Notes under the pieces: generated by a model | What the model was told of the DNA's origin: nothing | Databases searched by the model: none | Seen by the model: only the letters and a program-made list of their open reading frames with translations | DNA from: Sphingomonas alba | GTDB taxonomy: Bacteria; Pseudomonadota; Alphaproteobacteria; Sphingomonadales; Sphingomonadaceae | NCBI RefSeq assembly: GCF_023516555.1 | Contig: NZ_JAMGBD010000001.1 | Coordinates: 1,426,001 to 1,490,000, forward strand | Length of the DNA stretch: 64,000 nt | Direction: 5' to 3' | Part shown: positions 12,720 through 55,400 of the stretch, piece after piece | How positions within the stretch are numbered: the first letter of the stretch is position 1 | How the letters are laid out: every line of letters starts with the position of its first letter | Translations under genes and position numbers: made by a program

Positions 12720-13127
12720 TCAGGTGTCGAAGGCGCCAAGGATCGGGCAGGGCCCGCCGCGCTTTTTGGCGCAGGCGGTGGCGAGCCCGGAAAGCGCGTC
12801 GCGGGCTTCCTGCAACGCCAGGATCTTCTCATCGATGGCGGCGACCCGGGCCTGGGCAAGCTCGCGGGCGCGGGCGCGGTCGTCCGACGCATCGAGCGCG
12901 ATGAGCTCGCCAATCTCGGCAAGGGTGAAACCGGCGGCCTGGGCCGAGCGGATGAACTTCAATCGCTGGACATCCTCGTCGCAATAGCGGCGCACTTCGC
13001 CATGCGGCCGTGGCGGCTCGGGGAGCAGGCCGCGCCGCTGGTAATAACGGACGGTCTCGACGCCCACGCCCGCCGCCTTGGCGAGCCCGCCGATCGTGTC
13101 CGAATTTCCTGCTTGATTCCGTACCAT
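12720..13127 (-). CDS. MerR family metal-type transcriptional regulator
   Basis: Predicted DNA-binding regulator of about 135 residues (longer from GTG 13157). The winged-helix domain shows IGGLAKAAGVGVETVRYYQRRGLL and GEVRRYCDEDVQRLKFIRSAQAAGFTL, followed by a long dimerisation helix and a C-terminal metal loop TACAKKRGGPCPIL. The two loop cysteines are CX7C, the spacing of Cu(I)-sensing CueR. The third ligand position, Cys82 in mercury MerR, is Arg here. So it is a metal-type MerR, but the metal is uncertain; Cu/Ag-type is my best guess. The ATG at 13125-13127 lies inside a CCGTAC-N4-GTACGG palindrome. It is divergent from the metallothionein-like gene at 13192. Confidence 0.88.
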   Translation of the reverse strand: MVRNQAGNSDTIGGLAKAAGVGVETVRYYQRRGLLPEPPRPHGEVRRYCDEDVQRLKFIRSAQAAGFTLAEIGELIALDASDDRARARELAQARVAAIDEKILALQEARDALSGLATACAKKRGGPCPILGAFDT

Positions 13128-13144
13128 GGTACGGAGGTTAATAG
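13113..13144 (+). promoter_or_regulatory. MerR-type promoter/operator for the Cys-rich peptide gene
   Basis: A perfect 16-bp palindrome, CCGTACCATGGTACGG (13119-13134), has the same half-sites (CCGTAC/GTACGG) and 4-bp centre as the classical mer operator. It lies between TTGATT (13113-13118, -35) and TTAATA/TAATAG (13138-13144, -10), giving a 19-20-bp spacer. That overlong spacer is the hallmark of MerR-activated promoters, where the regulator untwists the DNA on metal binding. Transcription would run rightwards into the gene at 13192. The palindrome also covers the likely start codon of the leftward merR-like gene, so binding should repress that gene as well. Confidence 0.8.
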
Positions 13145-13191
13145 TCCTTTTGTCCACGGCGAATCAACGCCGCGACGGAAGGAGAAAAGAG

Positions 13192-13299
13192 ATGCTTTCC
13201 AATACTTATCTTAGCGAGCTGCAGGTCCAGGCTGCCAAGCTCGACACGCGCGGTGGCTGCAAGTGCAAGCCCTGCACCTGCAAGAATTGCGCTTGCTGA
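13192..13299 (+). CDS. Metallothionein-like hexa-cysteine peptide (35 aa)
   Basis: A 35-residue open frame with a good ribosome site (AAGGAGAAAAGAG before ATG 13192). The first 22 residues look helical and contain no Cys (MLSNTYLSELQVQAAKLDTR, GG). The last 13 hold six cysteines in a regular array: CKC-KP-CTC-KN-CAC, that is three CXC units separated by two residues, rich in Lys. This is a metallothionein-like metal-thiolate cluster sequence, far shorter than SmtA or MymT. It is governed by an apparent MerR-type promoter and faces the MerR regulator gene, so metal binding (buffering or sequestration in the cytoplasm) is a well-supported inference. A strong hairpin follows the stop. Confidence 0.78.
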   Translation: MLSNTYLSELQVQAAKLDTRGGCKCKPCTCKNCAC

Positions 13300-13446: not shown

Positions 13447-13545
13447 ATGGCCAAAGGCCAAGTCAAGAAGAACAAGGAAGCCCGCAAGCCCAAGAAGGAA
13501 AAGGTGAAAGTCATCGCCGCCAACCCTTCGACGAAAGGGCGCTAG
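13447..13545 (+). CDS. Small lysine-rich hypothetical protein (32 aa)
   Basis: A 32-residue open frame with a strong ribosome site (GGGAGGAG nine bases before ATG 13447). The product is very basic: MAKGQVKKNKEARKPKKEK then VKVIAANPSTKGR. Short proteins with the same MAKGQ...NKE.RKPKK pattern are annotated as hypothetical in many alphaproteobacteria. It could bind nucleic acid or ribosomes by charge, but no function is known. It lies 147 bases after the Cys-rich peptide gene, on the same strand, separated by the hairpin. Confidence 0.6.
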   Translation: MAKGQVKKNKEARKPKKEKVKVIAANPSTKGR

Positions 13546-13550
13546 GCGCC

Positions 13551-13680
13551 ACCGAGCGCAAGCGAGCGATTGCGAGGCAATCGCGACCTAGCGCGCAGAG
13601 ATGGCGCCAGCCGGACGGCCTGCGCGGCTCGCCGCGACAGGACCTACGGCGCGGATTCACTCCGCGCCGAGCGCCACGGG
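13551..13680 (+). repeat. Three-hairpin structured repeat, copy A
   Basis: Non-coding element matching 53680-53803 on the opposite strand. Hairpin 1 is at 13566-13584 (GCGATTGC/GCAATCGC, loop GAG), hairpin 2 at 13623-13636 and hairpin 3 at 13647-13669 (CGGCGCGG/CCGCGCCG with loop ATTCACT). The spacers between hairpins, 38 and 10 bases, agree with copy B (39 and 10). Hairpins 1 and 3 differ in sequence between the copies while keeping their pairing. ACAGGAC between hairpins 2 and 3 is conserved. It lies between the small Lys-rich gene and the PIN cassette. It may be a mobile palindromic repeat or an RNA with a conserved fold. Confidence 0.65.
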
Positions 13681-16485: not shown

Positions 16486-18402
<1,917 letters not shown>

Positions 18403-18813
18403 TTAAATAGCGATGGGATCAGCCCGGCCGGTCAGGCCGAGGATGATGAGGACGATTCCGAAGGTCGCGGCGAAGAGCGAAATCATCCGCTGGTTCACGA
18501 CGACGGGCCTGAAGAAGATAAGCAGTGGGCGCGCGGCGATCATGATGAGCAGTCCTTCGACCAGCGCGATCCAGGCAATCGCCGAGACGATGATGGCGAG
18601 CAGGTCGGTCCAGTGGTGGTGGTTCATGATCATGACGCCGCCGATGACAAACACGACGAATCCAGTGACGAAGGCGAGCGAGGGCGAGCGTTCGAACTCC
18701 TCCATCATGGCCCGCCAGTCGATGCGGCCGGTGAATCCCGCGATGCCCGCGGCGAGCTCGTAGAGGCCGATGAGCACCAGGAGATGCAATGTCAGGGGTA
18801 TGGCAGTCGTCAT
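18403..18813 (-). CDS. Four-helix membrane protein under a TPP riboswitch
   Basis: Unrecognised 136-residue integral membrane protein with four TM helices (about 6-26, 47-67, 70-92 and 110-130), short loops and a conserved-looking MIMNHHHWTDLLA motif between helices 2 and 3. Its ATG (18811-18813) lies immediately after the aptamer, and its ribosome site (GGAGGAAGAGG) is part of the closing stem of the riboswitch. It is the first gene of the thiC transcript. The position argues for a thiamine-related role such as uptake of thiamine or a precursor, but neither sequence family nor key residues prove it. It is shorter than classical thiamine transporters. Confidence 0.72.
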   Translation of the reverse strand: MTTAIPLTLHLLVLIGLYELAAGIAGFTGRIDWRAMMEEFERSPSLAFVTGFVVFVIGGVMIMNHHHWTDLLAIIVSAIAWIALVEGLLIMIAARPLLIFFRPVVVNQRMISLFAATFGIVLIILGLTGRADPIAI

Positions 18814-18814
18814 C

Positions 18815-18912
18815 TTCCTCTTCCTCCGCCGGTTTGAGCCGGATCAGGTTCGGCGGGTCGCGGCCTCAGCCGCCTCTCAACCGCTTGCGCGCGGTCCCCC
18901 GGGGAAGAGTCG
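18815..18912 (-). ncRNA. TPP (thiamine pyrophosphate) riboswitch
   Basis: Read on the minus strand, the segment carries the TPP aptamer landmarks in order: a 5' stem strand CTCTTCC, the GCGGTTGAGAGG block (CUGAGA-like), a variable stem GGCTGAGGCC, then GACCCGCCGAACCTGATCC, GGCTCAAACCGGCGGAGG and a closing GGAAGAG. The core GAACCTGATC..GG....CCGGCG is diagnostic for the family. The 3' strand of the closing stem is also the ribosome site for the gene starting at 18813, so ligand binding should block translation directly. It controls the membrane protein and thiC. Confidence 0.9.
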
Positions 18913-53679: not shown

Positions 53680-53803
53680 CCGCCGTGGCCGGCGCGAAGT
53701 GAATTCGCGCCGTCAGTCCTGTCCGCAGCGCGGCAGGCTGGCCGCTACTCAGCCTCTCTCACGCTGCTCCGGCGACACTGCGTGTCGGCGTCGCTGCGCT
53801 CGG
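53680..53803 (-). repeat. Three-hairpin structured repeat, copy B (inverted)
   Basis: Minus-strand counterpart of copy A (13551-13680). In its own direction it shows hairpin 1 at 53787-53773 (CGACAC/GTGTCG, loop GCA), hairpin 2 at 53733-53723 and hairpin 3 at 53712-53690 (CGGCGCGA/TCGCGCCG, loop ATTCACT). The spacers are 39 and 10 bases. Against copy A the stem sequences differ but pairing is preserved (GCGATTGC/GCAATCGC against CGACAC/GTGTCG; GG-CC against GA-TC at the tip of hairpin 3). It lies between the flippase and purH stops, so it might act as a shared terminator or be a mobile repeat. Confidence 0.65.
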
Positions 53804-53810
53804 GTCTTCG

Positions 53811-55400
53811 TCAATGCCGGAAGTGCCGCATTCCTGTAAAAACCATCGCCAAACCCGCGTCGTCTGCAGCAGCGATGACGTCCTCATCGCGGATTGAGCC
53901 GCCAGGTTGAATTACTGCCGTCGCGCCCGCTTCGGCTGCGGCGAGCAAGCCGTCGGCGAATGGGAAGAAGGCATCAGAGGCGACCGCTGAGCCGACCGTG
54001 CGCGGCTGTGGCCAGCCATTGGCTTCGGCGGCTTCGACAGCGCGAATGGCGGCGATGCGCGAACTGTCCCGGCGGTTCATCTGGCCGGCGCCGATGCCAG
54101 CCGTGACACCGTCCTTCGCGTAGACGATCGCGTTCGACTTGACGTGCTTGGCGACGGTCCAGGCGAACAGGCAGTCGGCCAGCTCCTGCTCCGTTGGCGC
54201 GCGCTTGGTGACGACCTTCAGGTCATCCCGGCTGATGCGGCCGTTGTCGCGCGACTGGACGAGCACGCCACCGGTGATGGTCTTTAGGGCGAATCCTCCG
54301 CGCGCCGGATCGGGCAAATCGCCGGTCAGCAACAGCCGCAGGTTCTTCTTCCGCGCGAAAGCGGCGATGGCACGTTCGTCAGCGTCCGGGGCGATGACGA
54401 CCTCGGTGAAGATCTCGGCAATGGCCTCGGCGGTCGGGCCATCCAGCGATCGGTTCAACGCAATGATGCCGCCAAAGGCCGAGACACTGTCGCACTCGAG
54501 CGCATGCCGGTATGCCTCGACCAGCGACGAAGCGGTCGCGACGCCGCAAGGATTGGCGTGCTTGACGATGACGCAGGTCGGTTCGGCCGCGCGGAATTCG
54601 CTGACAAGTTCCAGCGCCGCATCGCCGTCGTTGATGTTGTTGTAGCTGAGCTCCTTGCCCTGCACCTGTCGCGCGCCGGCGACTCCCATCGCCCCGCGGG
54701 ATTGCGGCAAATAGAGCGCCGCTTTCTGATGCGGGTTCTCGCCGTAGCGAAGCTCGCTGCTCTTGGTCAGAGCGATAGGCAGGCTGTCAGGGAAGAATTG
54801 TTGTTGGTCGGCGAACGCGAACCAGCTGGCAATGGCGGAATCGTAGGCGGCGGTCAGCGCGTAGGCCTTGGCCGCCAAACGCTTTCTGAGTTCAAGCGTC
54901 GTACCGCCCTTTTCGTCGAGCTCGGCCAGTACGGCGGAATAGTCGGCGGGATCGGTGAGAATGGCGACCGAGGCATGGTTCTTGGCCGCCGAGCGCACCA
55001 TCGACGGGCCGCCGATATCGATATTTTCGATGATCGTGTCGCGGTCGGCGCCGCTCATGACAGTATTGAGGAAGGGGTAGAGGTTGACGACGACGAGATC
55101 GATCGCGCCGATGTCATGCTGGGCCATCGAGGCTTCGTGCTCGGCATTGCCGCGCACCGCGAGGAGACCGCCGTGGACCTTGGGATGGAGGGTCTTCACA
55201 CGCCCGTCCATCATTTCCGGGAAGCCCGTAACTTCACTAATTTCACGGACATCGAGACCAGAATCGCGAAGTTTGGCTGCAGTGCCGCCAGTCGAGACGA
55301 TTTCAACATTGTGCCGGGCGAGGCCGGCCGCAAGCTCCTCAAGGCCGGACTTGTCGGACAAGGAAATTAGCGCGCGCCTTACCGGCACCACATCGGTCAT
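53811..55400 (-). CDS. purH: Bifunctional AICAR transformylase / IMP cyclohydrolase (PurH)
   Basis: Last two steps of de novo purine synthesis: formylation of AICAR and closure of FAICAR to IMP. The 529-residue length fits. The N-terminal cyclohydrolase begins [39 protein letters not shown]. The transformylase part has [40 protein letters not shown] and [11 protein letters not shown], with the Lys/His residues of catalysis. The start is ATG 55398-55400, 12 bases after the heparinase-like gene stop, in the rpe-heparinase-purH unit. Its stop is next to the inverted repeat copy B. Confidence 0.97.

Follow-up and report, generated by a model that had tools for sequence, protein, structure and literature searches.

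An apparently undescribed family of three-arm structured repeats at gene ends in Sphingomonas

A 64,000-nt stretch of the Sphingomonas alba genome (contig NZ_JAMGBD010000001.1, positions 1,426,001 to 1,490,000; hereafter the window) holds two distant segments, on opposite strands, that share three hairpins and differ in the sequences of their stems. These segments raise the questions of what kind of element they represent, whether selection acts on their structure, and what such an element does beside a gene. The segments, their stems, the common loop ATTCACT and the stem changes described in the first-pass annotation were all found in the window sequence. The limits had to be moved: each element extends slightly further at its 5' end than had been noted and includes a closing helix, P0, which gives 13546-13669 (+) for copy A and 53690-53809 (-) for copy B. 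The motif ACAGGAC, which had been placed between hairpins 2 and 3, is present but belongs to hairpin 2 (CCTG...A-CAGG-A-CC), whose 3' strand it forms together with bulged A's. A covariance model of the full-length element (R2; built from 45 copies, 129 positions, 37 pairs) matched copy A with 94.8 bits (E = 4.7e-22) and copy B with 89.8 bits (E = 8e-21), so that the resemblance between the two segments is far above chance.

Copy A directly follows the TAG stop codon (13543-13545) of a 32-aa Lys-rich open reading frame (ORF) (13447-13545, +; MAKGQVKKNKEARKPKKEKVKVIAANPSTKGR*), which had no Pfam or NCBIfam match. The 5' strand of its P0, GCCA (13548-13551), pairs with TGGC (13602-13605), and the helix reaches 7 bp in the fold. 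The two conserved sides of an internal loop, CCGAG (13552-13556) and AGAGA (13597-13601), flank the arm P1 (13557-13593), in which the model match and the fold give an outer helix (13557-13562/13588-13593) and an inner helix (13567-13573/13577-13583). Hairpin P2 (13616-13645) takes in ACAGGAC, with bulged A's at 13637 and 13642, and is followed by P3 (13647-13669) with its loop ATTCACT (13655-13661). The two hairpins are covered at 13615-13669 by a match to R1, a 56-nt covariance model of the 3' half (P2 and P3) built from 17 hand-aligned copies, and P3 is also covered by the R2 match. Copy B lies 3' of purH (53811-55400, -; PF01808, E = 7.5e-126), and its P0 begins 3 nt after the end of the purH stop codon. 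Its 5' domain (53751-53809, -) consists of P0 (53807-53804/53754-53751, three of four positions paired), CCGAG (53803-53799), P1 (53798-53762) and AGAGA (53759-53755), followed by P2 (53714-53740, -) and by P3 with loop ATTCACT (53690-53712, -), both supported by the R1 match and the fold. When single sequences were folded within the earlier limits, the z-scores were -3.49 for copy A and -1.69 for copy B, for which 14 of 200 shuffles folded as well. With P0 added, they were -4.56 (0 of 200 shuffles) and -2.49 (5 of 200), respectively.

Further copies were found well beyond the window. The exact pattern of the third hairpin, GCGNATTCACTNCGC, had 4 matches in the S. alba genome and none when reversed; within the window, a loose search allowing up to 3 mismatches gave no excess (6 matches against 9.1 expected), and the exact matches were copies A and B only. 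In the same 2.5-Mb genome, R1 detected 23 copies at E ≤ 7e-5 and R2 detected 29 at E ≤ 4.9e-8. Within the genus, 53 of 61 genomes had an R1 match at E ≤ 0.1, and the number of matches per genome ranged from 0 to 30. At the level of the order, 11 of 147 drawn genomes were matched at E ≤ 0.01, all from the family of the window, and at the level of the class 2 of 289, both from the same family and one of them the S. alba genome itself; these two draws used stricter filters than the genus search, at which weak matches are lost. Among named genomes, a pattern scan gave 33 stretches, all from Sphingomonas, Sphingosinicella or unassigned alphaproteobacterial or proteobacterial metagenome-assembled genomes; S. 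rhizophila, S. caseinilyticus and S. cremea are among the carriers. GCGNATTCACTNCGC alone matched 27 of 100 relatives, against 4 matches for the reversed control. In four genomes of other families (L008 to L011) the rest of the element was absent, and these matches look like chance, as do some matches within the genus that also lack it (e.g., L027 and L028).

The counts below refer to 125 copies, which comprise the R1 matches of the S. alba genome, retrieved loci with the stronger matches among those listed for the genus, and neighboring copies in those loci; at least this many exist. At the gathering score, Rfam 15 recognized only a TPP riboswitch elsewhere in the window and only tRNAs in 20 further loci. 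A permissive scan of four loci gave weak matches only, the best of them to the small RNA ar35 at the copy behind what we take to be groEL (36.6 bits, under the 45-bit cut-off). This match, together with a loop that stays constant amid variable stems, would fit a source of 3'-UTR-derived small RNAs acting in trans through an exposed AUUYACU loop. We regard this as exceedingly improbable: the ar35 match extends downstream past P3, the other three loci in the scan had no ar35 match, and dozens of near-equal loops suit a structural role better. The element was not found described in a literature search restricted to open-licence papers. The approximately 125-nt element is thus apparently an undescribed family of dispersed structured non-coding repeats.

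A 5' domain was recognized in 111 of the 125 copies and went unrecognized in 14. In these 111, the order of parts is (T)GA, P0 (4 bp), CCGAG, P1, P1', a spacer, AGAGA, P0', GA, P2 and P3. P1 is an irregular arm in which a helix of some 6 bp encloses an inner hairpin, and it contains an A·A mismatch in 46 of 111 copies. GAAGAGA follows the arm on the P0' side of the internal loop; the spacer from P1 to AGAG is mostly 2 to 4 nt and not strictly 3 (CGA in 33 copies, CG in 18, TCGA in 16, CGT in 14; n = 111). The CCGA and GA-rich sides of the loop are near constant (G in 102 and A in 108 copies; G in 107 and A in 110; n = 111), in copies that were recognized partly through this same motif with up to 2 mismatches per side. 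Conserved bulged A's separate the segments of P2. The dominant consensus of the P3 loop is ATTYACT; at the fixed position, ATTTACT occurs in 43 and ATTCACT in 38 of 125 copies, and many others are shifted by one base.

Some copies depart from this plan. In four of the 29 S. alba copies (L286, L292, L295 and L296), a longer irregular arm in P3 replaces the ATTYACT loop. In L150 (the copy at 2080-2135) and L155, from different genomes, the inner P1 hairpin contains the palindrome ccccggacttgatccgggg, as if a repeat had entered a repeat. Copies behind the presumed groEL in three species (L036, L166 and L182) have in common a special 5' arm in which P1 reads ccgg...ccgg with a different internal loop.

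Selection on structure, which the first-pass annotation had inferred from the two copies alone, is supported by the additional copies, by covariation and by stems that are mostly kept. In 113 copies of P2 and P3 aligned by fitting to the model, taken from matches in 100 of the 112 loci that yielded the 125 copies, 97.1% of pair cells were paired, compared with a mean of 76.9% after shuffling and 26 to 33% in slid registers, and two-sided changes occurred at 17 of 20 pairs (12.7 in shuffled alignments). The 17 copies behind R1 were part of those then known, and the counts from their alignment were left out of the evidence. Over the full element, 91.1% of cells were paired in 45 copies (68.7% shuffled, 28 to 40% slid) with two-sided changes at 30 of 37 pairs (26.2 shuffled); these copies were chosen from the 125 because their lengths were typical and their pairing scores reached 7.5 or more, with registers set partly by pairing, so that the value of 91.1% is flattering. 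P0 offers an unbiased check, as it can be anchored solely by the flanking CCGAG and AGAG: in 64 copies, 92.2% of cells were paired, compared with at most 68.8% in 500 shuffles and 14 to 45% in slid registers. For P1, 587 of 666 pairs formed; swapped partners, for which the register was likewise re-optimized, gave 457 on average and 476 at most.

Differences that break stems at random were looked for at the same gene across species. In 15 groups comprising the 38 copies with recognized upstream proteins, 198 pair cells differed, of which 142 were compensated, 12 had changed on one side and still paired, 43 were broken and 1 was bad in both; these cells depend on one another, and compensation would be mimicked if the element had inserted anew at that site. 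These results show that a defined three-arm structure is maintained by compensatory change and that pairing is largely retained where the element persists at the same gene in several species.

Simple ORF scoring placed 83 of the 125 copies at the end of an ORF in the sense direction, 7 after a tRNA and 21 antisense beside a gene start; 14 were unclear. The sense orientation was therefore found in 90 of 111 classifiable copies (P = 2e-11). A 5' domain was recognized in 74 of the sense cases, and in 33 of these no base separates P0 from the stop codon. By earlier gene calls, the stop codon at zero distance was TGA in 22 cases, TAA in 8 and TAG in none, and the absence of TAG (0 of 30) differed from other distances (7 of 31; P = 0.011). 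Of 29 copies whose P0 begins 2 to 12 nt after the stop codon, 21 still have GA in front of P0, compared with a background of 9%, and GA is also found before P0 in tRNA and antisense cases. Since GA is present even where it is not part of a stop codon, it belongs to the consensus of the element, which often overlaps the stop codon.

The internal loop between P1 and P0 resembles a kink-turn, in that CCGA and nGAAGAGA can form C-G, G-A and A-G beside a bulge. By sequence, this tandem G-A/A-G arrangement is near constant in the 111 copies, which were chosen partly by the motif; the length of the bulge varies. A protein might bind this loop, the AUUYACU loop or both, and the ribosome at the stop codon might control folding, so that the element would be a regulatory RNA. 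The near-constant loop, the GA before and after P0, the lack of TAG at zero distance and the dominance of ATTYACT speak for such a role, which we nevertheless consider quite improbable, given that the spacer ranges from 2 to 4 nt in most copies instead of being a strict 3 and that copies after tRNAs need no ribosome.

The position at 3' ends, the strongly paired hairpins and the convergent neighbors of 42 of the 125 copies would suit a transcription terminator formed by P2 and P3 as tandem U-less hairpins. However, by base composition of the 125 copies, no U-tract follows P3: the next bases are G and then C (each in 92 of 125), followed by mixed bases with a pyrimidine excess. A separate hairpin with a T-run lies further downstream of the copy behind the presumed groEL. 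Moreover, in 20 of 45 codirectional cases, called with a crude ORF caller, the next ORF begins within 60 nt of P3. Among these are dnaN-element-recF and infB-element-rbfA, each in three genomes and with the next start 15 to 23 nt past P3. The names dnaN, infB and rbfA are presumed from features of the sequences, and recF was assigned through NCBIfam on a partial protein with a score under the cut-off. Transcription therefore probably passes through the element at these sites. An intrinsic terminator was rejected as the sole role because the U-tract is missing and copies lie inside dnaN-recF and infB-rbfA, and termination by the two hairpins is altogether very unlikely. Integron attC sites and group IIC introns were considered and set aside, the hosts here being core genes and tRNAs.

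The sites differ among species. We fetched the purH locus from 30 of the 61 genus genomes and judged presence by eye on the sequence, leaving out 4 loci as unreadable; the remaining 26 held 2 full copies, 1 degenerate remnant (G057) and 23 sites without the element. Copies behind purH also occur in G011 and G060. Among 30 fetched dnaN-recF loci, 2 of 12 readable sites were filled; one assembly (G031) carried a filled site and, on another contig, an empty one, and may be mixed. Filled and empty sites thus show that copies come and go, with pairing largely kept where they persist, and with only 2 of 26 readable purH sites holding a full copy the element is dispensable there.

Such turnover, the remnant at purH and the range of 0 to 30 matches per genome are what a selfish miniature DNA repeat would leave. 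In such a repeat, the hairpins would be single-stranded DNA sites for a putative transposase or recombinase, the placement after stop codons would reflect target choice and the purging of harmful insertions, and any RNA effect would be incidental. Additional support for it comes from GNA triloops, which are very stable in DNA and are found at the apex of P1 in 47 of 111 copies and of P2 in 44 of 125, from the variant P3 arms in S. alba, and from antisense copies and tail-to-tail pairs. We nevertheless think a purely selfish repeat somewhat unlikely. A Y1 transposase of the RAYT type (PF01797) was found in none of the S. alba proteins and in only 3 of 61 genus genomes, and blastn with copy A gave no match in plasmid and phage collections. 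The compensated changes between copies at the same gene, the predominance of sense copies, many of them starting exactly at the stop, and the GA before P0 where no stop codon supplies it also stand against it. If the DNA reading were true, the element would be a mobile repeat without a known mover that favors stop codons to a remarkable degree.

The tail-to-tail pairs, 23 to 25 nt apart, were seen at L068 (1422+, 1501-), L150 (2001+, 2080-) and L207 (2001+, 2082-). Only at L207 does each member lie behind its own convergent sense ORF; at L068 and L150 one member is antisense. Dimers of repetitive extragenic palindromes (REPs) are also often arranged tail to tail.

The balance between action as RNA and as DNA rests on several comparisons. 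The sense bias, the stop-codon register and the G·A-rich loops argue for RNA; the 21 antisense copies beside gene starts and the antisense members in two of the three tail-to-tail pairs argue against an RNA cap. G-U pairs, which would be favored over A-C in RNA, are few, a further point for a DNA repeat, and make the strand comparison a weak test: in P2 and P3 together they numbered 21 against 11 of 2,220 cells, and in P3 alone (88 copies) 4 against 9. For the anchored P0 the numbers were 11 and 8, which with P2 and P3 sum to 32 against 19 (P = 0.09), and for P1 they were 23 and 2 when registers were chosen by pairing and 3 and 0 in a fixed register.

The element is a gene-end repeat like known ones, but its fold is multi-arm and RNA-like. 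ERIC, also called IRU, measures about 127 bp, occurs in enterobacteria and is one long inverted repeat. The element here is like it in size and intergenic location, and differs in its taxon and in having three arms with conserved internal loops; the two are set apart by description only. ERIC is co-transcribed, with an apparent effect on the stability of mRNA (PMC2229807), which is again similar to what we propose here.

Closer in taxon are the CGTC-tagged REPs, which Di Nocera et al. (2013; PMC3733652) describe beside GTAG-tagged ones as mostly alphaproteobacterial, including sphingomonads, and as lying near ORF 3' ends; many REPs are there thought to act as RNA. Like these, the present element is a dispersed palindromic repeat of sphingomonads without a dedicated transposase, and 83 of 125 copies lie at sense ORF ends. 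CGTC REPs are single hairpins of 20 to 40 bp with an unpaired CGTC tag, a stem of 8 to 9 bp starting with complementary A/T, a loop of mostly 4 to 5 nt and a CCA-like tail (PMC3733652). In contrast, the element has about 125 nt and three arms, and its CG(TC) lies inside a stem: the first P3 pair (C-G) forms in 106 of 112 distinct copies and the second (G-C or G-U) in 111. P3 starts with C-G and G-C, carries the 7-nt loop ATTYACT and is followed by G and C with no CCA tail. GTAG REPs, whose termini often supply the stop codon of flanking ORFs according to that paper (PMC3733652), are similar in this respect and in their 3'-end location. The GTAG tag is absent from the consensus of the element, and a REP/RAYT system was rejected for the want of tags and of a Y1 transposase in the S. 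alba genome.

Both action at the RNA level and mobility of the element are inferred. The explanation that we favor, with slightly less than even confidence, is a REP- or ERIC-like dispersed element that, as RNA, caps 3' ends or spaces cistrons. The element would be transcribed at the very start of a 3' UTR or, within an operon, as a spacer that parts two genes. When the ribosome departs from the stop codon, P0/P1, P2 and P3 would form at once in the RNA, and the folded block would shield the upstream message from 3'-to-5' exonucleases and separate the upstream cistron from the next one, as RNA hairpins of REP and ERIC are thought to do. Like REP and ERIC, the element would spread as a nonautonomous repeat, moved by some enzyme. 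In a more specific and unlikely version of this cap, the stop codon would supply the first nucleotides of the 3'-UTR RNA. The GA of UGA would be the tandem G-A step closing P0, and a ribosome at termination would keep the element unfolded until its release permits folding. Such a portable end-of-gene module would couple termination to capping or insulation, and would have spread over many genes and been remade in each species by compensatory change.

As far as a search of open-licence papers shows, the formation of 3' ends and the protection of messages in sphingomonads are little described. If the RNA reading is true, one and the same folded cap recurs at about 29 sites in the S. alba genome, a natural experiment on 3'-end function; these include the site behind purH and those behind what are presumably groEL, ychF, rpmG and cspA.

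Other sequences lie near the element. In four S. alba copies (L044, L052, L053 and L055), a second repeat-like sequence, aatgtccgctttcgaccc...gcggacatt, starts 2 to 12 nt after P3. At L047, approximately 20 nt after P3, the sequence ttcccgctttcgcgggaatgacga, when reversed, resembles a CGTC-tagged REP hairpin. Within the window, a 35-aa Cys-rich ORF ending in GGCKCKPCTCKNCAC* (13192-13299, +) is divergent from a gene for a MerR-type regulator (12720-13157, -); it had no Pfam match and looks like a small metal-binding, metallothionein-like protein. The TPP riboswitch (18804-18911, -; RF00059, 65.1 bits) lies approximately 400 nt upstream of a long ORF (16486-18390, -).
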